A stretch of DNA of 64,000 nt from Aldrovandia affinis. Lineage: Eukaryota > Chordata > Actinopteri > Notacanthiformes > Halosauridae. Below the pieces are notes generated by a model that was not told the DNA's origin, ran no database searches, and saw nothing but the letters and a program-made list of their open reading frames with translations. Below, in pieces: positions 2,996-38,826 of the stretch. The position numbers and the translations under genes are program-made. The DNA lies in assembly GCA_029706075.1 (NCBI GenBank), contig JAINUG010000148.1, positions 1,820,939-1,884,938 of the forward strand, written 5' to 3'. Position 1 is the stretch's first letter; the number at the start of each line of letters is the position of its first letter.

Positions 2996-3702
2996 TGGCG
3001 CTGAATAACGATGAATCACAGCTCTCAGGGTGGAAATTCAAAGGCTACGGTACATATGGAACCGTGTATGTGTTGTTACGAAAATCCATCGCCGTCTTCG
3101 CACCTTAATCCGATGGCGGGGATGTCCATGTCCAATGTAACCTATCAGTGTATTAGCAGGGCATGCTTTGTGCTTGAGGGAGATTCCAGTGTTCTTTATC
3201 ATCCTCTGATTGGCTAGCCCACGTTTAGTTTGTGTCAAGTTTCTCTTCTTGAGAAAGACAAGACAACCATCGGCGTGTGCTTGTTGTGAGATGAAGTGGT
3301 CAGGCTGGCGGTATATTTCCCACTTGCAGTGAGCAGCGCAGCACGGTCGCTTCTGGCTCACTTGTCGGGCAGAAAGAGTGACGTGAGCGTGATCGAGATC
3401 CGCAGGATGCCCCTCTACTCTCCTGACCTGTCAGGTGACTCTCGTGTCTCACATCAGGGGGAGGGGGCCCAAATCATCTCAACTCCGTAGCCATGGTCCC
3501 TTATGGATGTGAAGGTGTTATAATATTACTCATGGTAGAAATAATAATGAATATCATTATTTGATTGATAATAGTCATAGTAATCATGCTCATCATGATC
3601 ATAATTGGAGTAGTCATAATGATGGATTGTGTTTATGTAGCACTTGTCATCATGGATTTCCCAAAGGTCCTCCATCTGAATAGTACTAACCAAGCCCAAC
3701 TC
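2301..3702. other. Gene-free intronic stretch with a (CA)n array
   Basis: A GC alternation lies at 2694-2706 and a (CA)n array of about 18 units at 2956-2992. Short open frames across the CA array are artefacts of the repeat. No exon-like segment was recognised. Confidence 0.6.
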
Positions 3703-3924
3703 AGGCTTAGTAGTATAGTGGTTAGGGAGCTGGGCTTGTAACGTTAAGGTTGCTGGTTCAATCCCCAGTTGGGACACTGTAGTGGTACCCTTGAGCAAGG
3801 TACTTAACCTGAATTGCTTCAGTAAAATACAATCCATTTATTCAGCTGTATAAATGGATTGTAAAGAAATGTAAAACTGTAAGTTGCTCTGGATAAGAGC
3901 GTCTGCTAAATGATTGTAATGTAA
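3703..3924 (+). repeat. tRNA-derived SINE with L2-like 3' tail
   Basis: An RNA polymerase III A-box-like TAGTATAGTGG lies at 3711-3721 and a B box GGTTCAATCCC at 3755-3765. A body follows ('cccttgagcaaggtacttaa', 'attcagctgtataaatggat'), and the element ends in GGATAAGAGCGTCTGCTAAATG and a TGTAATGTAA tail. It is the best-preserved copy in the window and serves as reference for the fragments at 1, 4015, 21775 and 58585. Confidence 0.85.
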
Positions 3925-4014
3925 CTCCTACTCCAGCCATCTGACTGCACACAGTAACGGGTGGTGCTCTCATGGCTGCTGGCGTCAGTTTGGGGGCAGT
4001 GGGCACTCACACGC

Positions 4015-4240
4015 AAGTAACTGGTTAAGGAAACTGTCTTTGCAACCCAAAGGTTGGAGGATCCGTTCCTGGGCAGCCCACTGCGGCCGTACCCTGGAGG
4101 AAGGTATTTATATCGAATTGCCTCTGTAAGTGCAGCAGTGCAATATTGGATAATATGGATAATTATGTTAAAAAAACGTAAACTGTGTAAGTGAGCCCAC
4201 ACTAAGGAGTGTCTACTAAGCAAATACTTCATAATTTCAG
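4015..4240 (+). repeat. Degenerate copy of the tRNA-derived SINE
   Basis: The order of blocks is as at 3703: a B-box-like region, 'gtaccctggaggaaggtatt', 'gaattgcctctgtaag', 'ggataatatggataattatg', 'aaactgtgtaagtg', then 'gtgtctactaagcaaat'. Many substitutions suggest an old insertion. A pure A run of about 20 lies just after it (about 4266-4284). Confidence 0.6.
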
Positions 4241-5225
4241 TATTCGCAAAAATCATAACATGAGCAAAAAAAAAAAAAAAAAAAGGGTTGGATCTCCTCT
4301 CTCTCCCTGCTTCTAAGCTGAGGTCAGAGCAGGGCACTCCCAATTATTTGCGTAACCGCTGGACACGACCCCAGCAAGCTCACTTGGTGGGTGCGGAAAA
4401 AAAAAAAAGGAAGCAAGTAAACCCCTGGCTTGTAGAATTGGCTTTGGACTTGACTTATTCTCACCACAGCCCCTCTGTTCCAGAGCAATTTGCTATATGA
4501 TATGTGATATGATATGCATATATAGCTGTTGCTTTCATTCCGGTAGATGCGGGGGTCGCCTTACCAAGAGCCCTAAAGGATATGAAGGACGATACGGCGC
4601 ATTTGTTCTCGAGTCCTTTCCTCGCACGCTCCTGCTGCGGAGTGCAGATTGAGTGGATCGCACTGTGGCCACAGCCATTTATCAAGGATCTTGTTACTAA
4701 TGAACAGAACAAGAGTATTGAACAAATGCTTGAAAAGTAATTTGGAAGTTAATTTCAGTTCCAATCTAGTAGGAGACCCGAAGCTATTAGTTTTTCTGTA
4801 AAAGGAGAATCAGGAATTCACTGCGGCTTGTCCTGGGGAAGGACAGCGTTAGATTCAGCCTGACACGCTCGGGCGCTGCGCGCACTTCAGCTAATTGCCT
4901 GGTAGATGCTGTGGAACTCTTTGAATGTCAGTCGTTCTGCGGAAATTAAATGTTAATTTAAAGTGCATCTTGTTAGCGCCGTAACTATGGAATTACTCTG
5001 TAAGTATACAGAGCAAAAACAGGAAATGTGTGGACCACTGCATTCATTTTTTTTTTTTTTTATTCCTGTACACGCCATTTAATTTTCGCTTTTAGTCCTC
5101 AGAGGTGCACAAAGACCAATCATTCAAATACCGGTTAAAATATTGGAACGTAGGCTTTAATATTATCGTATAAATAATATGATGAAATTGGACTGCTGGA
5201 CTTTCAACAATTTACGTCACGCTTC
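4241..5225. other. Gene-free intronic stretch
   Basis: It holds A runs at about 4266-4284 and 4397-4408 and a T run at about 5047-5062. The remainder looks unique and shows no coding signal. Confidence 0.55.
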
Positions 5226-6144
5226 CACGGCCAGAAAGAGAAAACGAAAAAGGCCAAGGATGGAAAGAAGATCAATAAAAAGAAAGAAACGAGTGAATGA
5301 AGGGCCTTATGAGCGTGAGCCACCTATTCCCCAAAAGAACAGGAAAGGCGGATACTAAAGGAGGCTCCAAAAAGAAGTCCAGGGCTGTCAATTGCAACTT
5401 GATTGATCCAGTTCTTGTGAAGTTTTTGAAATGATGTGCTCATATTTGAAGAAATAACATCAGCTAAGATGTCAGTAGAACAAGTTCAAGTACCTGCAGT
5501 TATTAAACTCCCATTGTTTTCAGACATCAGTGCTGACGAGCCATCCAGTGAATTCGCTCTTTTTGTAGACCGCAAATTCAGTAAACCGTTCTTTGGATGG
5601 TAGTGCATTGTATTGCAAGGAAAGGAAATTATATCACTTTAAAGACACAAAAACCGAAGTCTGAGACGGACATCGGTGAGGAGGAAACAGCTGTGGGGAA
5701 AGAGCAGTGAGAGGCGACGTGATTTTAAATGATATGACAGAGGCACAGGAGAAACGCTTCTTCTCGTTGCGCTGCATGGCAAGAGGCTGATATGTTGACC
5801 TCATCCAGTGAGGTTACAATACACTGGAGCAGCTGGTGAATGCATATACCACTTTGGCACAACAGGTTCACGGCACGGACGCCACAACAAACCGTCAACC
5901 GCATATTAAATCGTTCAAAGAAGTAGCAGAAAAGTTGACAGGGTAGCGCAGCCCCGATCAATTGAAAAAGAAAACACGGTTCAGTCAACCAGCCAACGCA
6001 TTTCTGAAGGCTGTCTGGATTTTTTTGCCCGGTCCGGATGTGGAAAACCCACCACTCGATAATGTTTCTGTTCACGGAGTTGGGGAGGACTGTCACTCTG
6101 AACTCAGAAACGGAACGGTAAGGAAAACACCCAAATGTCTTTGA
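5226..6144 (+). pseudogene. Decayed protein-coding stretch, unidentified (pseudogene candidate)
   Basis: Several adjoining + strand stretches look like protein but are broken by shifts and stops. A Lys/Arg-rich start lies at about 5233-5300. Open runs follow at 5309-5434 (frame ending VLVKFLK) and 5436-5603 (55 codons, containing IFEEITSAKMSVEQVQ and KLPLFSDISADEPSSEF). A charged piece near 5642 includes ETDIGEEETAV. From 5731 to 6144 a single frame runs on with only three internal stops (5788, 5809, 5944); it contains EAQEKRFFSLRCMARG, NTLEQLVNAYTTLAQQVHG and FLKAVWIFLPGPDVENPP. The in-frame persistence between stops suggests a once-real coding sequence with at least two frameshifts. I do not recognise the family. 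It could be a processed pseudogene or part of an old mobile element. A GGTAAGG donor-like site at about 6116 is probably incidental. Confidence 0.45.
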
Positions 6145-9100: not shown

Positions 9101-9325
9101 TTGCATACAATTATGTGCTCGGCGTGATAAACTACGCCAGCTTATGTTACGTGTAGAGCACACAAATGATTATTCTTGCCGTAAGTTGTTCTTGCCGTAA
9201 ATTGTTCTTGCTGCAACTAATTCAGTTTGCTTCCAGATTATTGTCATTTTTTGTCATTTTTGTTCAGTTTTTGTTGTGCTCAGATGAGAGTAGGTGTTTT
9301 ACAAATGTGCATTTGTGTACACATA
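6145..9325. other. Gene-free intronic stretch, mostly unique
   Basis: No exon was recognised. Landmarks are a homeodomain-motif-rich block at about 6545-6620, G and C homopolymer patches at about 6892-6903 and 7200-7230, and a T run of about 30 at 7688-7714. A weak SINE-like block with 'ggtacgatccccgcg' lies near 8058. An open frame at 8284-8679 lacks any recognisable domain and is not annotated as a gene. Confidence 0.5.
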
Positions 9326-9497
9326 CACTACCGGTCAAAAGTTTTAGAACACCCCCATAACCTAAACTTTTTTTTTTAACCTCTGGCAGTTTACCGCTTA
9401 CCTTTGTACCATTTCAGGTTATTCTCTGGACTTGAACTGCTTAAATTTTATTAAACACTGGAAAATGGAGGTGTTCTAAAACTTTTGACCGGTAGTG
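9326..9497. mobile_element. 172-bp Tc1/mariner-type MITE flanked by TA
   Basis: The terminal inverted repeats begin CACTACCGGTCAAAAGTTTT and continue to AGAACACC(C/T)CCA on both ends, about 30 bases with a single mismatch. TA dinucleotides flank both ends (9324-9325 and 9498-9499), the target duplication expected of Tc1/mariner elements. The interior has a T run and no coding capacity. The near-perfect ends suggest a fairly young non-autonomous element. Confidence 0.88.
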
Positions 9498-11278
<1,781 letters not shown>

Positions 11279-11545: not shown

Positions 11546-12116
11546 CTCTTGACCCGCAGGAATGGGAGAATGAAACGGCCGCCTCCCAGTGATGGTCACT
11601 GTTTTCAGTCCGTCTGTCTCATCTCCCATCCCGGGACCCCTGGACTCCCATCCCCCCCATCACGGCCATGCGTTTAAGGCAGAAAATGTCACGGGACATA
11701 AAAACACGCTTTGAAAACTTTCAAAATGCCATCTGTTGCACCGTGCATCTGGTGTAATTGCCTAGTTCCAAGAGTCACAGTCCCATATCCCAGCATCCTT
11801 TGTTTCTTCAATTTAAATTACCTTCCCTCTGGAAACGATCATTAAAGGGCAGTAAGTGTAATCGCCAGGATATTACTCTTTCACAAACGGATTGGCCATG
11901 GGCTCTTCTACTGATCGTTGTAGGGCCTTTCCTCTTCTCCTCGTCTTTAGTTTGCTTTCATGAAATGGTTAATTAAAGGTTCCAGTTTGTCCTCTCTTTA
12001 GAAAAAGTGTTAAAGAGAAGTAGAAATTCAGCAAGTGAGTAGTGTAGGATGCATGAAATTAGCATATGTCATCATTACCTTTCATCTCTCTGTCTCAACA
12101 GTGGGATATTTGTGCA
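11546..12116. other. Gene-free intronic stretch
   Basis: No coding exon or repeat family was recognised before the Tc1 element. Confidence 0.5.
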
Positions 12117-12865
12117 CAGTGGGTATAAAAAGTATTCTTCACATTTTATCTTCTTACTTTGTGGAATCAAAAGGATTTCATTGGGATTTTTTGCCACTGA
12201 TCAACACAAAATACTCTATAATGTCAAATAAATTAATTAAAAACATGAATTAATTGTTAATTAATTACAAATAAAAAAGCAGACAATAATTGATTGCATA
12301 AGTATTCACCTCTTTTTCTAAGAGATAAATAAACTCTTCTGCGATCAATTGTCTTCAGAAGTCACATAATTATTTGATTTGATTTGATAAGATTAGAAAA
12401 CTTTACTGTCCATCACATTCATGACAGAAAATTGTCTTTGACATGGGTTCATAAAAACATAAAACATAAACAGCAACAGTTAAGACAACAGCGCAGACAT
12501 GTGGGCTGTACCCTCCTCCGTTCATATTATCTGATATTAAATGCGCTACAAGGAAGTCAGAAAAAGATCATGCTGGAGTAAGCATAAAAATAAACAAAAT
12601 TAAATCTGGACTTTCTGCCCCCTGTGAGTCCACCTGTGTACAATTAAGGTGTTTCAAATGATGTGAGATGTCCTACATTTGGTTAGTGCATTTCCTAACA
12701 AGAGCTTCATCATGAAGACCAAAGAACATTCGAAACAAATACGAGAAAAAGTTTTTTAAAAGCACCAATCAGGGGAAAGATATAATGTTTAAAAGATTTT
12801 GAATGTCCCCTGGAGCACCGTTAAGTCCATGATAAAGAAATGGAGAGAACATTGGACAACTGAAT

Positions 12866-13392
12866 TTGCCTAGAACAGGTCATCCTCCAAAACTTAGCAT
12901 CCGTGTGAGAAGGGCACTTGTAAGGGAGGCCACCAAAAGGCCTATGGCAACTCTGATTCAGTTACAGTCTTCCGTGGCAGAGATGAGAGAAACTGTCCAT
13001 GGGACAACAATAGCCTGTGCACTTCACAAATCTGTGCTCTATGGGATGGTGGGAAAAAGAAAGCCATTGTTGAAGAAAAGTCACATGAAATCAGCCTAGA
13101 GTTTGCCAGATGTGGGAGACTCTGAAACCAGGTTGAGACCAAGATTGAACTGTTTGGCATTAACGTTAGGCGCTATGTTTGGCACAAGCTTAACACTGCG
13201 CATCATACCAAGAACACTATCCCTACTATGAAACATGGTGGTGGGAGCCTAATGCTATGGGGATGCTTCTCTGCTTCAGAGACTGGAAAACTTGTCAAAA
13301 TAGAGAAGAAAATGAATGGAGCAAGATATAGACAAATCTTGGAGGAACACTTGCTGCAGTCTGCAAGAGACCTGGGACTTGGGAGAATATGT
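12866..13392 (+). pseudogene. Broken Tc1 transposase, 5' two-thirds (outer element)
   Basis: The N-terminal helix-turn-helix region of a Tc1 DDE transposase is visible: RTGHPPKLSIRVRRALVRE, then ATLIQLQSSVAEM and GKRKPLLKKSHMKSA (12866-13099). After a shift, TKIELFGINVRRYVW, NTIPTMKHGGGSLMLWGCFS and EEHLLQSARDLGLGR follow to about 13391. There it stops at the junction with the inserted element. The normal next block, with the second catalytic Asp (usually QQDNDPKHT), is missing, so the copy is dead. Confidence 0.85.
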
Positions 13393-14558
13393 ACAGTAGA
13401 CTCCATTTTTATTCACACCCTTGATAAAGATAAACAAAAGAGATTGTATAAAATTATATTCTTTAATAATAATGCATTGGCATAAACCACAATCGGAACG
13501 GTTCACAAATTATAATTTTTTTCCCCAGAAAAAGCAAGAATCACAAATATTCACACCCCTGTTATCAGTACTTTGTGATTCCTCCCTTGGCCATTATAAC
13601 AGCAAGTAGTCGCCTTCTGTAGTGTTGTACGAGGTTAAGGAACTTCTTGGGGGGGGATCCTCAACCATTCCTCCATGCAGAATTGTTCTATTTCCTTCAG
13701 ATTCTTGGATTGACATTCATGGACTGCTTTGTTGAGTTCAAACCGCAAATGTTCAATTGAATTCAGGTCTGGACACTGAGATGGCCACATTAGGACATTG
13801 ATCTTGTGCTCTGTCAACCATTTCTTAGTTTCTATATAATGCCTTTGTCAGACCTCACTTAGAATACTGTGTGCAGTTCTGGGCACCGCACTACAAGAAA
13901 GATATAGAAGCTCTTGAAAAAGTCCAAAGAAGGGCAACTAAACTGATACCTGGTATGAAAGGTAAAAGTTGATGATGATAGACTTGATAGGCACTCAATC
14001 TATTTAAACTTAGCAAACGGAGACTTAGGGGGGATTTGATTGAGGTTTTTAAATTCCTAAAAGGGATTAACAAAGTAAAATACCAAAGATTTTTTAAGAT
14101 AAGTGGGGTCAGCAGAACAAGAGACCACAGGTGGAAATTAGTTAAAGGCAAATTCCACACAGATATTCGTTTTTCTTTACACAGAGAGTTGTCAATACCT
14201 GGAACAGCTTGCCAGGTCGGGTTGTAGAGGCAGAAACACTTTTCTATTCAAGTTATATTCAAGTATTCAAGTCCAGGCTAGATGTAGTACTAGATACTCT
14301 TTAGATTAGGACATGATGAGCCTAGATGGGCCGAACGGCCCGTTCCCATCATTATGTATTCTTATGTTCTTTTGTTCTTTGGACGTATGTTTGGGATTGT
14401 TGTCTTGTTGGAAGGTCTATCTGCGGCCAAGGTGTAGCTTCCTGGCAGAGGGAACAAGGTTTTTGGATGCAATGTCTTGGCACATGCTGGAATTTATGGT
14501 TCCATCTATTTTAATAAGGGCCCCAGGACCTGTGGAGGCAAAACAACCCCAAAGTCAA
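13392..14558 (-). mobile_element. Second Tc1-like element, 5'-truncated, inserted on the opposite strand
   Basis: One end is intact: TACAGTAGACTCCATTTTTA at about 13391, then TTCACACCC, starting next to a TA. Read on the - strand, the C-terminal transposase half is seen: HKINVLMWPSQCPDLNSIEH and NLKEIEQFCMEEW (13635-13820). On the far side of the CR1 insertion come CQDIASKNLVPSARKLHLGR and QQDNNPKHTSK (about 14381-14555). The N-terminal half and the other terminal repeat are absent. The relic at 30560-31461 shares its end sequence. Confidence 0.8.
13833..14377 (+). mobile_element. 5'-truncated CR1-like LINE inside the second Tc1 element
   Basis: It starts abruptly at TATATAATGCCTTTGTCAGA. 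It contains the C-terminal end of a reverse transcriptase ORF ([18 protein letters not shown]-type, then LIEVFKFLKGINKVKYQRFF) and ends in ATTCTTATGTTCTT-type 8-bp repeats, the usual CR1 3' signature. It splits GTTTC and TTTGG of the Tc1 transposase cleanly. It is very similar to 38217-38826 but lacks that copy's 59-bp insert and has its own frameshifts. Confidence 0.85.
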
Positions 14559-14559
14559 A

Positions 14560-14765
14560 GCTCAGACCTCAATCCCATTGAGAATCTGTGGAAAGATTTG
14601 AAAATTTCTGTTCACCAACGGTCCCCTTCCGACCAAATGGAGCTCGAGCAATTTTGTAAAGAAGAATGAGCGAAAATTGCAGTGTCCAGATATGCAAAGC
14701 CGGTTAAGACTTACCCAAATAGACTCACAGCTGTAATTACTGCCAAAGGTGGGGTGAATACTTAT
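14560..14765 (+). pseudogene. Tc1 transposase, C-terminal part (outer element)
   Basis: The outer element's reading resumes as SPDLNPIENLWKDLK, which includes the third catalytic residue Glu in the NPIE motif. MELEQFCKEE, a stop, then SRYAKPVK and LTAVITAKGGVNT follow. Together with 12866-13392 this gives most of a transposase, minus the block lost at the insertion. Confidence 0.8.
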
Positions 14766-14973
14766 GTAATCAATTAGTCTGTTTTTTTAAATCTGTAACT
14801 AATTAAGAAAAAGCTTTAGAGTTTTTTTAATTTTATTTGACATTATAGAGTATTTTGTGTTGATCAGTGGCAATCCCAAGTGATCAGTCCCAATTAAATC
14901 CATTTTGATCCCATGGAGTAAGAAAATAAAATGTGAAAAAGGCCAAAGGGGTGAATACTTTTTATACCCACTG

Positions 14974-15614
14974 TATCTCCCTATATACCAGCAACGTAAG
15001 AAACGACACTACACTGTCTCTCATTCAACCCTTATTTCTCCGGGTTACCGATATAATTCCCTCTCAACGGAGCGTGGTTTTAACTTGTGAACCCCGCTCT
15101 TCGACAGAATATTAAAATGCTCTTTCGTGGGCGATTCTTGATGGACGTGTTAATAACCGCCTTCTCATCTGACTAAAGGTTTTAAACCCCCCCATTTTTT
15201 ACCTGGTCCTCATCTCTAATTTCTGTCGTTATTATTTCTCCATTTCAAGTATGTCTTCCCTTCACCCCCCCCCCCTTCTCATCTTCCAATTATCGGTGTG
15301 TCCCGAAGGCTTGGCTGGGGGCGTGCGATCTCGGCTCTCCCTCACTTACGTCTCTGACGGACAGCTTAATTAATTTCCCTGTTCCGTGCGCTAACTTCTC
15401 CACGCTCTTTAGATTGGACTCGTGTCCGGGGTCCGTGTCTTTGCTTATTTGGCCGGAACGGGTCTCTCTTGCCAAGGTCAGAGCGGTGGAGTTGTGAAGG
15501 AGGGAGAGGGACCCTGGGTCTGCTCCCTTCCTGTGGAGAGAGGCACAGAGAGCCTCATCATTCATAACTACAGCCTGGTGGGCCCTCGGTGTAGTCGCCT
15601 CACTGGGAACAGAG
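14974..15614. other. Gene-free intronic stretch
   Basis: It holds C runs near 15187 and 15265-15274; otherwise unclassified. Open frames running into the GT repeat at 15615 are repeat artefacts. Confidence 0.5.
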
Positions 15615-15619
15615 GTGTG

Positions 15620-15659
<40 letters not shown>

Positions 15660-15704
15660 TGTGTGTGTGTGTGCGTGTGTGTGTGTGCGCATGTGCAGGT
15701 GCGC
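15615..15704. repeat. Imperfect (GT)n / (GTGC)n microsatellite
   Basis: Runs of GT are broken by GC steps (GTGTGCGTGTGT). A second short GT run lies at about 16033-16050. These border the left arm of the inverted repeat. Confidence 0.9.
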
Positions 15705-15740
15705 GTGCGCATGCATATGTTAGTGTGTACGTCTGCATCT

Positions 15741-15972
15741 ACCGGCCATCATCACTGCGCAAGCACACTTCAAAAGTATAGAGTTTGCTTGTATGAGTGA
15801 GTGAGTGAGTGTCTGTGGGCTCGTGCAGACATCGGCGCACGTGTCTGTGCGTGTGAACGTCCCCGCGCTCGAGTGCGCCTGCACGCACGATGCATGTACC
15901 GTACGCGCTTTTGACGCGTGCATATCCGCGCCCCGCGTGCGTTCGTGCGAGAGCGAGTGTGTGTGCACAAAT
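15741..15972. repeat. Left arm of a large inverted repeat
   Basis: Bases 15741-15778 are the exact reverse complement of 16995-17032 (38 of 38). After a short GAGT tract, the run from about 15797 (GTGTCTGTGGGCTCGTGC, ACATCGGCGCACGTGTCTG, CGCTTTTGACGCGTGCATAT, CCCCGCGTGCGTTCGTGCG) matches the reverse complement of the right arm. By eye this is above 90%, with an extra ~11 bases near 15885. Confidence 0.92.
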
Positions 15973-16743
15973 GTGCCTATGTGAGTGTTTGCATCTGTGT
16001 GTGCATGCATATGTCAGTGTGTACGTCTGCATGTGTGTGTGTGTGTGTGTTTGGGGGACGTTATCCCAAAGAGGCCGATATCTTACCTATAACTGGGTTT
16101 TAATGGAGTGAGATAGAGTGTCATGAGTTAATGCGTTCCTGTCTGAAAGCGCGCGGCCTGATTTCCCTTTCCTAATCAGCTTTCCTTGCGGCGTTCAGTT
16201 CAAACAATCAATGGCTGTTTGATTCCTTTATTAAAACGCCTTCATGAAAATGACTCTCAAAGGGCCCCCGCCCGCCCGCCCGCCCTCTCTCTCTCTCTCT
16301 CTAACTGACAGCGGTGCACTTCCACATCGCGACAGCGGCGGTGTCAGTGACGGCGGCGAATGAAGGAAAGTGCAAACACATTAATACCTCCATTAGGCGA
16401 AGCTCAGTCGGCCTCGGTTTGTGGCCGCCCACAATTAAGAACGGCGTGTGCCCGACGCGTTGTTTAACGGTAACCGGGGCTCCATTTTGTCTGCGCAACG
16501 ATGCGTGAGCGAGTGTTTACACTACCGGTCGACGGGAGCTCGCCGGCGTTTAGCGGGGCCGCAGCGCTCGTGCGCTCTGAAGGCCAGCCTCTTCGTATGC
16601 CGCTCCCGTTGGTAACTCAAAATGAATGCGGTGTGATTTCTCTTGTGATTTACGTGTTTACGGCGGCGGGGTAAGCCACGCCACTGCGGCTTTCCTTTCC
16701 GCCCTTTTGTTTCTGCCCGTCCGCACTCACGAGAACACACAGG
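15973..16743. other. Spacer of the inverted repeat
   Basis: Mixed sequence with no coding signal. It includes a CCCG/CT-repeat block at about 16265-16302. A 30-base direct repeat of 15709-15738 occurs at 16003-16032 (29 of 30 identical). Confidence 0.7.
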
Positions 16744-17032
16744 CGCGCACGCACACTCGCACGCACGAACGCACGCGGGGCGCGTATATGCACGCGTCAA
16801 AAGCGCGTACAGTACATGCAGGCGCACTCAAGCGCGGGACGTTCACACGCACAGACACGTGCGCCGATGTCCGCACGAGCCCACAGACACTCACTCACTC
16901 ACTCACTCAATCACTCACTCGCTCACTCACTCAATCACTCACTCACTTACTCACTCACTCACTCACTCACTCACGTGAGCAAACGGCACCTCTGTACTTT
17001 TGAAGTGTGCTTGCGCAGTGATGATGGCCGGT
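16744..17032. repeat. Right arm of the large inverted repeat
   Basis: This is the partner of 15741-15972, separated by about 770 bases of spacer. It is longer because its ACTC tract (16888-16974) has about 20 units against about four in the left arm. Contents include GCGTATATGCACGCGTCAAA, AGCGCGTACAGTACATGCAG and CACGTGCGCCGATGTCCG. Confidence 0.92.
16888..16974. repeat. (ACTC)n tetranucleotide array
   Basis: About 20 units with a few AATC, GCTC and TTAC variants, within the right arm of the inverted repeat. Confidence 0.95.
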
Positions 17033-17597
17033 TACTCCCACACATTCCCTCCTCATGTGAAACTGAGGCCTTAAATAAGGTGAGTGGTCTTGGCAGATGT
17101 ACGATGTGACGTCTGATTCAGTATATGAATCTTCTTGCAACCATGTTGCAGACAGCACAGATCCATATATATAAATATATATATGTATGTATGCCTCCTA
17201 ACACTGTATGTCGGGCTTGTGAGAGTGACAGCTCCGTGAAATCAGATTTATCGTTCGTGTAAACTGGGAAACGTGACCTAATTGAAGTAGTGCCCTATTA
17301 AAATGTATTAGTGGAATATGAATAGTAACCTATTAGCATTAATGTGTTTGAAATATGTCATTAATTAGAGGCCCGGTGTCAATCAGAATAGGGAGCCAGG
17401 TCCTGCTGTGTTATTTGGCCCAATGGGGATGCTCAGTGAGAGCACCTGTACCCCCTCTCTCTCTCTCTTTTCCTAATGCATTCCTTTCATCATCTGCAAT
17501 TTCAGACAAACAAACACTCTCTAATATGTGGCCTAGATTTTCCCCCACATACAGACTCTTCAACTCCCCAATCACTGTGCCCGTAATAAAGAGAGTT
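17033..17597. other. Gene-free intronic stretch
   Basis: An AT microsatellite lies at about 17166-17191 and a CT run at 17456-17468; nothing else recognised. Confidence 0.5.
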
Positions 17598-18011
17598 AAT
17601 TCTCTGTGCTGTAACGGGGAGCTCGTTCACTGTCATGTAACACTGAGAGAGCATTCACTGTGCTGTAACACAGAGATAATTCACTGTGCTATCACACAAA
17701 GATAATTTACTGTGCTGTAACACAGAGATAATTCACTGTACTATATCACAGAAATCATTCACTGTGCTGTAACACAGAGATAATGCACTGTACTATAACA
17801 CAGAAACCATTCACTGTGCTGTAACACAGAGATAATTCACTGTACTATATCACAGAAATCATTCACTGTGCTGTAACACAGAGATAATTCACTGTACTAT
17901 ATCACAGAAATCATTCACTGTGCTGTAACACAGAGATAATTCACTGTACTATATCACAGAAATCATTCACTGTGCTGTAACACAGAGCTCACTCCCTGTG
18001 CTGTGACAGAG
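17598..18011. repeat. Minisatellite with alternating 26-bp subunits (52-bp higher-order unit)
   Basis: Two 26-base variants alternate. One reads ATCATTCACTGTGCTGTAAC then ACAGAG; the other reads ATAATTCACTGTACTATATC then ACAGAA. The central part (about 17700-17975) is nearly perfect at the 52-base level, and the edges contain more diverged single subunits. About 16 subunits in all. Confidence 0.93.
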
Positions 18012-18304
18012 AGTGCTTACTCTAGGATCAGCTAAGACCAGCGTCCGATCAGCTAAAGATAGATCAGTGGGAGAGAACAGTCCCACGTACAGTACATGTT
18101 TTTGCACTTTGACAGTTACATGCCCCGAACACAAGGGCATCGCCTCCTTTTCTGATGTCTGCAGACCCTGTTTTTTTGTTTTTTTGCCACGCTGTGATGG
18201 GCTTTTGTGCTTCATCCGTATTCAGGAAGACATGCAGCTTTCAAATGTGTTCAAAGACCAATGATAATAGCGTAGCCTAGTTTTCCAGTTTTTTTAAACT
18301 TTAT

Positions 18305-31461: not shown

Positions 31462-34400
31462 TTCTGGAGACGTGGAACAGCAGTGAACGGACGCCTTGAC
31501 AGACACAAGGACAGATGCCATAGGCGTCACACCTGCAGCGGGAAGCAGAGCTCCTGGCAGAGGGCAGAAGTCCCATGAGCCGGGGTAAGCGGGGCGGTCG
31601 GGGGACACTTTTTGTGAGGGGGGTGATGATAAGGCAGCTGAGGTCTGGGGAAGAGCAGTTCACTTCAAAGCCAGCTGCGCATGTGGGCGCTGCTTATCGC
31701 CTGATGAGTGTCTGCGGCGGTGCTTTAACCCGAGAATTCCCATGATCCTCTTCCACTCCCCTCCACTCGTCCCTATTTTTACCACACGCACACACACCTG
31801 CGCCCATGTCCCGAGCAGGAGGGACCACATTACTGCTGGTACTGATGGCCGACAGAGTGAAGGGGAACCTTCCCCCACACAAGCGGTTATTGCCAATGTC
31901 CCTTCAGTCGGGGTCCAGGGTGTTTTTACAGGAATGATTGAGCGGGAGAGGTTCAGAAGGAAAAACGTTAACATTCTAACTGGAAATCAATTTGAAATGA
32001 CTTCTATTTTTTATTTATTTTGTCCTTGGGTTGCACGTCCTTTATCGGCGCTTGACCATAATTCTGGTGCGGAGGGTTTTTCGGCCGGAGTCTGTAGTCT
32101 TACAGAGCAGAGGCCTCTTCGCGAGAGACGTGTAATAGCATATTGTGTTTGACGTGGCCGCGGGCTGAATGCATTCCGCAAGCCAAATGTCAACACGTAT
32201 TTAAATGTCCGTTCCTGAAATAACGCACGGGTCCTCAACGACGCTGTGACCGCTCAGACAACACACCGCTCAGCACACATCAGCGGGGGGAAAGGCGCGG
32301 TTTCCTCTGTGCGTGAGAAAAGAGCACGCATGGCCGCGCATGCCACGCTCAGGTTGAGAACGGGAACCTAATTCACCGGGAGCGCCATGGTCCCTGTGTT
32401 CATATGTAACGTACCGCTGGGTGTAGCCAGGCGGAGGGGGAGGTGACCGCCCGGAGTGGGCCGTGTACATTTTGGATGTGTTTGTTAGCGTGGCTACTTC
32501 CGCTTGGCTAGTTGGTCACACCGCTGCCCGCTCTGCTTTTCGCCTGCCTTGACATCCATCGACCCCGTTATGAGCCACCTCCTTATCGAGATCCGCCGTG
32601 CCCCACCTCTGATGTTGTCGGCCTTTTTGAAACAGTTTTGTGAGGAGGCCTCAGAGTCAGAACCCTGTTGGCGATTCATTATGCAGCTCACCTCGTTAAC
32701 GAATGTGATAAATATTCATCTTGTTTTCAGAAAGGCACTGCTGAATTTTAAGCGAAATTTTATTATAATCATAATATAATAATCATAAAATGCAGGCGGG
32801 GGCTTTTCACATGTAAGTACAGGATACGGTTAAATCTGTTTTGCAAACAATCGGTACGCCAGCCACTCCATTATGTATAGTTAATGTCTCACCCTGGCCT
32901 TGATTACCAACCACATCCATAATGGACAGGGTGTGAGGAGTAGGGGAGTGGGGAGGGGAAGAGAGGAGATGTAACCCTCCCACATGTTGGGGGGTGAGGA
33001 CAAGGTCAGAGGTCAAACAGGACCTCTGCGGTTATTATGACGCTTGATTTCACATGGGTAAGGATCAGGTTGGAGAGAAATGGGAAATGAGTGGTCAACA
33101 AAAGCGGGTTTACCCCTGAAAACATCACCCATAAGCTTGCAGACACACTCAACACCAAAAAGAAAATTGAGAGTACACTTTTAACACAGCAAGCATTTGA
33201 ATGTCTTACAGGGCTAAATAGACAAGCCACGTGAACTGGTGCTTTGACGTCGGTGATGATTTCAGCAAAGTGGAATGGTGACAGGGCTACTTGTCTTGAT
33301 GTGGATAGTTGTGAATTAGAGAGTGGAATGTGTCTCTGTGTACAGGATTTAATTTATTAGGGCTTGGGGTGGGGGGTGGGTAGAGTAATGTAGAGACAGG
33401 GAGGTTAGGGGGTGGGGAGTTAATTTGCTCCTGATTGGGGCCTTAAGTACCTGCTCTTGGCTGCACTGAACTGTGACCTGATTCTGGTGTGTCCTTGTTT
33501 CAGAGGTACGAGTTATCGGCTCCCGGTCCCGGCCGTGATGCAGGCTCTGGGTTTTGGGGGGGGGAGGGCGTGGTTTCCGCGTTCGCCATGCTCCGCTCCC
33601 CTCCCCTCTGGGCTGGAGGAGAACGTGTCCCGAGGCCCGCGGAGATTTCACGCCGCCCGCTTGCTAATAACCTCCCAAATCTCATCAATGGCGGCGCTTT
33701 TATCCGCCCGTCCCGTCCCGTCCCTCCCCTCTTAAACACGCATAATTGAATGTGATTAAAGAGGCTCTCAGATTAGTCCCCCCCCCACACGAACCCTCAA
33801 CGGCAGCGACTTCCTCGACAGTTTGTTTCAACTCTGCCTTTCATTAGAGGGACTCCGCGTCACCTTGTCGGAGATGTCTGAAGCACCCGGTGGCTGGCTG
33901 AGGAGCACAGCTTTCCCCAGCCTGTACATGTCTCCCCATAAACACTGGCTAAAGGCACACACACTTAAAATACCCTCCTAATGACTCAGGTTGCTTTTTA
34001 TAACTAGCGAAAAGGACAACGGCTCTGCTCTTAAATTGGGGTTTTCTGAATTGTTTTGTTTGAATTGCCTTTCATGTCTCCATTTATTCCCTGAAATCGA
34101 TGCTTAATGCTGAAATCGCACTTCATCATACTGAAGGGAACTTGAATAGGCTTAAAATGTCTAGATGCACCAGGGATATTTAAGAATGAAAGCTGGAACC
34201 TGGAGCTGAAGCTGAGAGCCTTCGCATCCTGGAGGGCATTTCAATTGTAGCCTCATCACCTTCTGTCTGCTCTCGGGTGTCTGTTTGGCATTGTGATGGT
34301 TAAATGCTTGCAGTTTTACATATTGGACCACAGTCAGAAACATGCAAATGGCACTGCTCAGAATCGCGTGATTCCAATCTGCTTCCTGGAGGATTTTTCT

Positions 34401-37315: not shown

Positions 37316-38826
37316 GATGAGTAATTGTAGTAGAAAAAGGAAAGTTAAGGATGAGGTTAAGTGCATTAAGAATAAGGAAGGAACTTTGGTTTATAATAAT
37401 AAGGATATTGCTAACACACTAAACAGTTACTTTGTTGAGAGCTTTACTAGAGAAGAGGTTATAAATATGCCTAAATGTATAGACAAGGTACAGAATGTTT
37501 TGGAGGACTTTGAGATAAGGGACATAGAAGTACTACAAAAACTAAGACAAATAAGGCAGCAGGCCCGGATGGCATATATCCCAGAGTACTCAAAGAACTT
37601 GGGGAAATTATATATAAACCATTGACAGATATTTTAATTCAATCCATAATGACTGGAAGCAGGGTAGTATAATTCCAATATATAAGAAGGGTGACCGTAC
37701 TGACCCAGGGAACTATAGGCCTGTCATGTAAAATGCTGGAATGTATTATTAGGGATAAGTTGGAATCATTCTTGAAAAATAATAGTATTTTAAGAGAGAG
37801 CCAACATGGTTTTCTCAAAGGGAGGTTATGCCTAACAAACCTCCTGGACTTTTTTTGAAGAGGCTACAAAGTGTGTTGACCTGAACCAGGCTTATGATAT
37901 TATATATTTGGACTTTCAGAAAGCATTTGACAAGGTACCACATGAGAGGCTCATTGCTAAAATGAATTCAGTAGGAATTGCAGGAATAGTTTCAGAGTGG
38001 GTTCATAATTGGCATGTGGGAAATAAAAACATTAGACAGGAGTATTTTATGGGAGGAGAAAAGTTAGTAGGTGTTCAATTTGAAAAAGACTTAGGAATTG
38101 TAGTTTATCAAAGCCTATCTGTATCAAAGCAGTGTGCTACAGCAGTGAAAAAAGCCAACAGGATGCTGGGATACATAGCAAAAAGTATTGAGTATAAATC
38201 AAAGGAGGTTATATTAATGTTATATAATGCCTTTGTCAGACCTCACTTAGAATTCTGTGTGCAGATCTGGGCACCGCACTACAAGAAAGATATAGAAGCT
38301 CTTGAAAAAGTCCAAAGAAGGGCAACTAAACTGATGCCTGGTATGAAAGGTAAAAGTTATGATGATAGACTTAAGGTACTCAATCTATTTAAGCTTAGCA
38401 AACGGAGACTTAGGGGGGTTTAGTTTATTCGACATTTTAGTTTAGTTTATTCGACATATCAATTTAAAATACATGTCAGACTTAGGGGGGATTTGATTGA
38501 GGTTTTTAAATTCCTAAAAGGGATTAACAAAGTGAAATACCAAAGATTTTTTAAGATAAGTGGGGTCAGCAGAACAAGAGACCACAGGTGGAAATTAGTT
38601 AAAGGCAAATTCCACAAAGATATTAGGACGTTTTTCTTTACACAGAGAGTTGTCAATGCCGGGAACAGCTTGCCAGGTTGGGTAGTAGAAGCAGAAACAC
38701 TTGGGGTATTCAAGTCCAGGCTAGATGTAGTACTAGATACTCTTTAGATTAGGACATGACGAGCCTAGATGGGCCGAACGGCCCGTTCTCGTCATTATGT
38801 ATTCTTATGTTCTTATGTTCTTATGT
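37316..38826 (+). mobile_element. CR1-like LINE copy with internal deletion
   Basis: In order: a pre-RT segment (IKNKEGTLVYNNKDIANTLN then SYFVESF, 37350-37450), worn RT fingers (GDRTDPGNYRPV-like near 37690), and RT motif A as LDFQKAFDKVPHERLI (about 37905-37950). The reading then jumps at about 38035 to the post-palm [37 protein letters not shown] and [20 protein letters not shown] follow. After a 59-bp insert come LIEVFKFLKGINKVKYQRFF and KSRLDVVLDTL. The end is TTCTTATG repeats. The catalytic ADD region is missing, so the copy cannot move itself. Confidence 0.88.
38419..38477 (-). mobile_element. 59-bp insertion with 13-bp target duplication inside the CR1 copy
   Basis: AGACTTAGGGGGG occurs at 38406-38418 and again at 38478-38490, whereas the sister copy at about 14020 has it once. 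The insert contains two TTTAGTTTATTCGACAT-type units. On the - strand it ends in ATGTCGAATAAACTAAA repeats, resembling the 3' end of a 5'-truncated non-LTR retrotransposon. Confidence 0.75.

Follow-up and report, generated by a model that had tools for sequence, protein, structure and literature searches.

A locus-specific inverted repeat in the genome of Aldrovandia affinis as a probable template-switch scar

The window, a stretch of 64,000 nucleotides from the genome of Aldrovandia affinis (C535:1820939-1884938), contains a large spaced inverted repeat. A direct repeat brackets the left arm and not the right arm, and the outer terminus of the arms was found only at this locus. The locus looks like a clear case of a mutational kind already known, an ordinary scar and neither a mobile element nor a known RNA gene. 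During replication or the repair of a break, the right arm was probably copied as its reverse complement ~1 kb leftward through two template switches. The inverted repeat had been pointed out in an earlier sequence-only reading of the window; the direct repeat around its left arm was absent from that reading and is the best clue to the origin of the structure.

Structure and divergence of the inverted repeat

The inverted repeat is real. When the left arm was aligned locally with the reverse complement of the right arm (Table 1), the score was 275 and the arm lengths were 243 and 297 nt, bearing out the ~230 and ~290 bases first claimed. The maximum scores of resampled pairs were 45, 62, and 81 at Markov orders 1, 3, and 4, respectively (300 pairs per order, 900 in total). 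End-to-end alignment of hand-chosen stretches a little longer than the local-alignment arms (15741-15987 versus 16724-17032) gave 216 matches, 11 mismatches, and 7 gap runs. The spacer between the arms (15984-16735) measured 752 nt, where ~770 had been proposed.

The outermost 38 bases are the same in both arms, as the sequence-only reading had it, and the earliest mismatch is at 15779/16994. When 11 differences were distributed at random over 227 columns, a clean run of at least 38 leading columns arose in 13% of 20,000 draws. The clean 38-base end is therefore not special in itself, and the idea that it has a special meaning was dropped. In the right arm, where an expanded ACTC tract was noted earlier, a CACT tract makes up most of the surplus length. 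Identity limited to microsatellite tracts had been named as one finding that would undo the inverted repeat. Blocks of 181 bases (87% identity) and 77 bases (86%) survived low-complexity filtering in BLAST, so the identity is not confined to microsatellite, and this possibility was ruled out. As far as tested, the earlier description of the repeat, as no named element and no simple repeat, stands.

Five of the 11 arm mismatches are of the CpG type, a CpG in one arm being paired in the alignment with TpG or CpA in the other. With CpG taken as ancestral, losses fall on both arms, three on the left (15827, 15962, and 15974) and two on the right (opposite 15870 and 15900), which indicates that the arms mutated separately. 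Separate mutation argues against a recent assembly duplication and also against complete homogenization of the arms. An assembly artifact is scarcely credible as the source of the inverted repeat: a chimera or folded read should give near-identical arms, whereas these differ by point changes and gap runs, with CpG-type differences on each. Assembly chimerism was rejected on these differences.

Table 1. Coordinates of the inverted repeat and associated features in the window
Feature	Position	Strand	Evidence and remarks
Direct-repeat copy 1, just outside left arm	15705..15740	+	Ungapped 33/36 match to 15999-16034
Direct-repeat copy 2, just inside left arm	15999..16034	+	33/36 ungapped; BLAST
Left arm	15741..15983	+	Putative inserted inverted copy of right arm; local and end-to-end alignment (latter to 15987)
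Right arm	16736..17032	-	Putative source segment; alignments; flanking direct-repeat score just 12
CACT microsatellite within right arm	16888..16974	+	TRF, alignment, genome-wide microsatellite matches; left arm has part only
CpG-rich spacer	16035..16735	.	CpG observed/expected 1.18 versus 0.55 in the window; single genome match barring low-complexity stretch
GT-rich microsatellite upstream of left arm	15615..15695	+	TRF; perhaps a site of fork stalling or re-annealing

Direct repeat around the left arm

The direct repeat has a 34-bp core with 94% identity and an E value of 1.6e-9 (BLAST, filtering on). Comparison of 60-base flanks gave a score of 58 around the left arm versus 12 around the right arm. 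Across the window, 2 of 1,270 segment pairs with the same spacing scored at least 50, namely, the left-arm flanks and a pair at 17651 that sits within a tandem array (17592-18013). The array begins 560 bases past the right arm and is built of 26-base units, with a higher-order period of 52 bases (94% matches). The two direct-repeat copies differ at 3 of 36 positions (8%) and the arms at 11 of 227 aligned columns (5%); on these small counts, the divergences are not grossly different, which fits one event.

Outside the composite of arms and spacer, no convincing target-site duplication was found at lengths of 3 to 15 with ends shifted by up to 3. The outer flanks carry near-duplications, of which CTA/TTA is seen by eye and TAC/TAC and CTACC/CTCCC appear solely with shifted ends.

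Twenty 10-kb control stretches of the same genome served to assess the frequency of such structures, with spacing of up to 2,500 bases. Spaced inverted repeats aligning over 150 or more bases were present in two of them, L013 (arms of 304 to 586 bases, 92 to 95%) and L030 (arms of 181 bases, 77%). Large inverted repeats are thus not rare in this genome, which lowers the interest of the locus. Two further controls, L026 and L027, contain imperfect palindromes that likewise align over 150 or more bases and have no spacer. Regarding a direct repeat around one arm, none of the six control pairs tested (from 17 rows) scored above 25, versus 58 at the locus. The arms in L013 lie in a region (3123-5996 of that control) with several inverted arms and 75-base repeats in both orientations, which resembles a cluster of foldback-type or nested transposons.

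Copy number in the genome

The assembly searched comprises 1.22 Gb in 2,576 contigs. The 37-base terminus occurs twice in it at ≤3 mismatches, both times at the locus, and the reversed-pattern control gave no occurrence. This count argues against a family of close copies in the assembly. Because the genome search passes over simple repeats and very common words, the absence of a match in it does not prove rarity. A left-arm query (15741-16030, including direct-repeat copy 2) gave 12 matches, with all nine first-look candidates scored: the query itself, two right-arm stretches, one at direct-repeat copy 1, and eight elsewhere. The eight have 74 to 79% identity and all fall in positions 197 to 290 of the query, its GT-rich inner end. 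The spacer query matched itself and twice more within its positions 233 to 268, a CCCG/CT stretch.

A right-arm query (16736-17100, the arm plus 68 bases beyond) gave 85 matches among the 40 of 616 candidates scored: itself, two left-arm stretches, and 82 around CACT (query positions 139 to 242). Since CACT dominates this search and 40 of 616 candidates were scored, uniqueness of the right arm is not established from it alone. Searches with the terminus, left arm, and spacer found no foldback-transposon family in the 1.22 Gb, in which strongly diverged copies could escape detection. The sequence-only reading had proposed that other copies of an arm be sought, many copies meaning a foldback transposon and one a local rearrangement; the terminus count supports the latter. 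On these searches, the inverted repeat is an inverted duplication at a single locus. Within the window, a match of 28 to 29 bases to both arms lies at 31783-31811 (89 to 90%; E values of 1e-4 to 3e-5 in BLAST); it counts slightly against strict uniqueness, is short and GT/CG-rich, and is probably due to chance.

Origin of the left arm

The direct repeat brackets the left arm only, which points to that arm as an inserted inverted copy and to the right arm as its source. From this arrangement we infer the direction of copying, a switching mechanism, an origin in a single event, and the ancestral state. The copied segment would be the right arm, about 297 to 309 bases, placed ~1 kb to the left. 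Read from left to right, synthesis would have abandoned its usual template at 15740 and continued on the opposite strand, from 17032 back to about 16724-16736, before rejoining the original template ~36 bases upstream of the departure point, so that those 36 bases would have been synthesized twice. In ancestral coordinates, the four switch points would lie in the order 4-1-3-2, the second switch landing upstream of the first. In the opposite reading direction, folding back of the nascent strand would give the same product, and GT/CA-rich sequence may aid the switch at the inner junction. Later divergence of the arms would reflect point mutation, CpG decay, and microsatellite change.

The locus is like the template switches of great apes in which point 4 lies before point 1, an order that yields direct plus inverted repeats according to the description in PMC7954356. 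As in that class, the putative insert reads as the reverse complement of sequence close by, and the direct repeat at the insertion site brackets the copy and not the source. Copied lengths in the gold-standard set presented there have a median of 12 and a maximum of 128, so that ~300 copied bases and a ~1-kb jump are large for that set and the length counts against a template switch; the same source gives the kilobase scale as the usual one for switching studies. Its cases also have a resolved ancestral state, whereas the ancestral state here is a reconstruction. By eye, the outer junction (between ATCT and ACCGG) shares no clear microhomology with what lies beyond the source, which likewise counts against switching. 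The inner junction is ambiguous for microhomology; its position in GT-rich sequence speaks for switching. The flanking repeat, moreover, adjoins GT-rich DNA, which readily undergoes local duplication, and could have arisen independently. Rearrangements attributed to microhomology-mediated break-induced replication or fork stalling involve switches over at least hundreds of bases and inverted pieces. Microhomology-mediated break-induced replication is usually described for large copy gains, whereas the locus would be a single small templated insertion.

Repair of a double-strand break would leave a product that looks identical. The left site would have been broken with staggered ends, whose filled overhangs would account for the direct repeat, and a patch copied or reverse transcribed from the nearby right arm would have been captured there before end joining; the little microhomology at the outer junction is consistent with such a course. 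The result would resemble class 2 of the two classes of templated sequence insertions described in PMC5110952, in that the insert is templated from elsewhere in the genome. As far as that description goes, class 2 insertions come without target-site duplications and templated insertions from distant regions, whereas the left arm has a 36-bp direct repeat and a local, inverted donor ~1 kb off; patch capture with end joining is for us an unlikely source of the left arm. A class 1 insertion, in which a LINE would have inserted an RNA copy of the right arm, would account for the target-site-like direct repeat of 36 bp, junction duplications in that class being of at least 5 bp, and LINE remnants do occur in the window (a UnaL2 3' element at 3866-3919 and reverse-transcriptase matches). 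Neither end of the left arm carries a poly(A) by eye, unlike class 1 insertions (PMC5110952), and the LINE route is highly improbable. It also has to contend with the length of the repeat. At 36 bp, the repeat is longer than typical LINE duplications.

In foldback and MITE transposons, long inverted arms flank a spacer, and the arms of the locus could in principle be the long terminal inverted repeats of such a DNA transposon. Elements of this kind may exist in the genome, given the inverted arms in control L013, and the small near-duplications at the outer flanks would be in keeping with one. Against this stand a terminus confined to one locus in 1.22 Gb at ≤3 mismatches, left-arm and spacer matches elsewhere that fall in GT-rich or CCCG/CT stretches only, and the lack of a convincing outer target-site duplication; a transposon would also leave the direct repeat around one arm unexplained. 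A foldback or MITE-like origin is very unlikely, and a foldback transposon was rejected on the terminus, the arm and spacer searches, and the outer flanks.

If the template-switch reading is right, the locus is a readable fossil of a large switch (~300 bases, ~1 kb away), in which both the inverted copy and the direct repeat can still be made out. Cases of this kind suggest that long inverted repeats, too, can arise by the mechanism known from short clusters of mutations; such repeats may be unstable DNA or may give rise to double-stranded RNA. A single case alone changes little, and the interest of the locus is modest.

Predicted RNA hairpin

The sequence-only reading proposed folding of the region as pre-mRNA, and the resulting hairpin is predicted to be thermodynamically sound. 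The plus strand folded at -698.4 kcal/mol, with 203 of the 243 left-arm bases paired with the right arm, compared with a mean of -472 (standard deviation, 12) when the left arm was resampled in 20 trials. The minus strand gave -704.7 versus a resampled mean of -487 (standard deviation, 11; 20 trials). A transcript, if made, would thus be expected to fold into a long hairpin. Any such inverted repeat folds in this way, and folding is therefore not evidence of function.

At gathering score, Rfam gave no match in the region, its sole hit in the window being the UnaL2 element (60.6 bits); five weak matches all lay under their cutoffs, and no tRNA was found in the window. A known RNA gene was rejected because the region lacks a match at gathering score. 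The arms could instead belong to a selected long-hairpin RNA locus, with the CpG-rich region transcribed and the arms forming edited or diced double-stranded RNA. The extent of pairing and the folding energy agree with this idea, whereas the similar folding expected of any inverted repeat of this size, the empty Rfam search, and CpG-type differences on both arms speak against it, and it is most improbable. It is hardly more probable that one replication error gave a CpG-rich segment, which may bear a promoter, a hairpin of ~200 pairs and that this segment would, if transcribed, be a ready-made gene for long double-stranded RNA. If true, this would be a route of origin for hairpin RNAs with stems far longer than the template-switch events reported in PMC7954356 (maximum, 128) and PMC8794818.

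Genomic surroundings

The sequence between 15.1 and 17.2 kb, which overlaps both arms and the spacer, is strongly CpG-rich, with an observed/expected ratio of up to 1.4 in a scan of 635 segments of 500 bases (step, 100). Among segments with a G+C content of at least 0.5, ratios of at least 1.2 occurred only in those starting at 16101-16501, against 0.55 for the whole window. Judged by its composition, the stretch 15101-17200 may be an unmethylated island or promoter.

The locus had been placed in an intron. A Pfam scan of 20 of the 123 listed open reading frames (at least 80 amino acids) gave matches for five, all to transposase or reverse transcriptase, of which two exceeded the curated cutoff; all five came from one batch of 10, and the other batch of 10 gave none. 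No host exon was found among these 20 open reading frames, which leaves the intron without support and not established.

Reverse-transcriptase remnants occur in the neighboring sequence. A Tc1-like transposon spans 12116-14974, with inverted ends at 12116-12310 and 14753-14974 (195 and 222 bases, 77%) and transposase matches in open reading frames at 12836-13099 (above the cutoff) and 14310-14669 (below it). Inside this element, 13833-14379 resembles 38221-38822 (90 to 95%), which suggests a nested retroelement fragment. A short MITE-like inverted repeat lies at 9324-9499, with 35-base arms (97%) and 106 bases between them, and an imperfect palindrome, a 144-base self-complementary stretch (71%), lies at 1756-1899.
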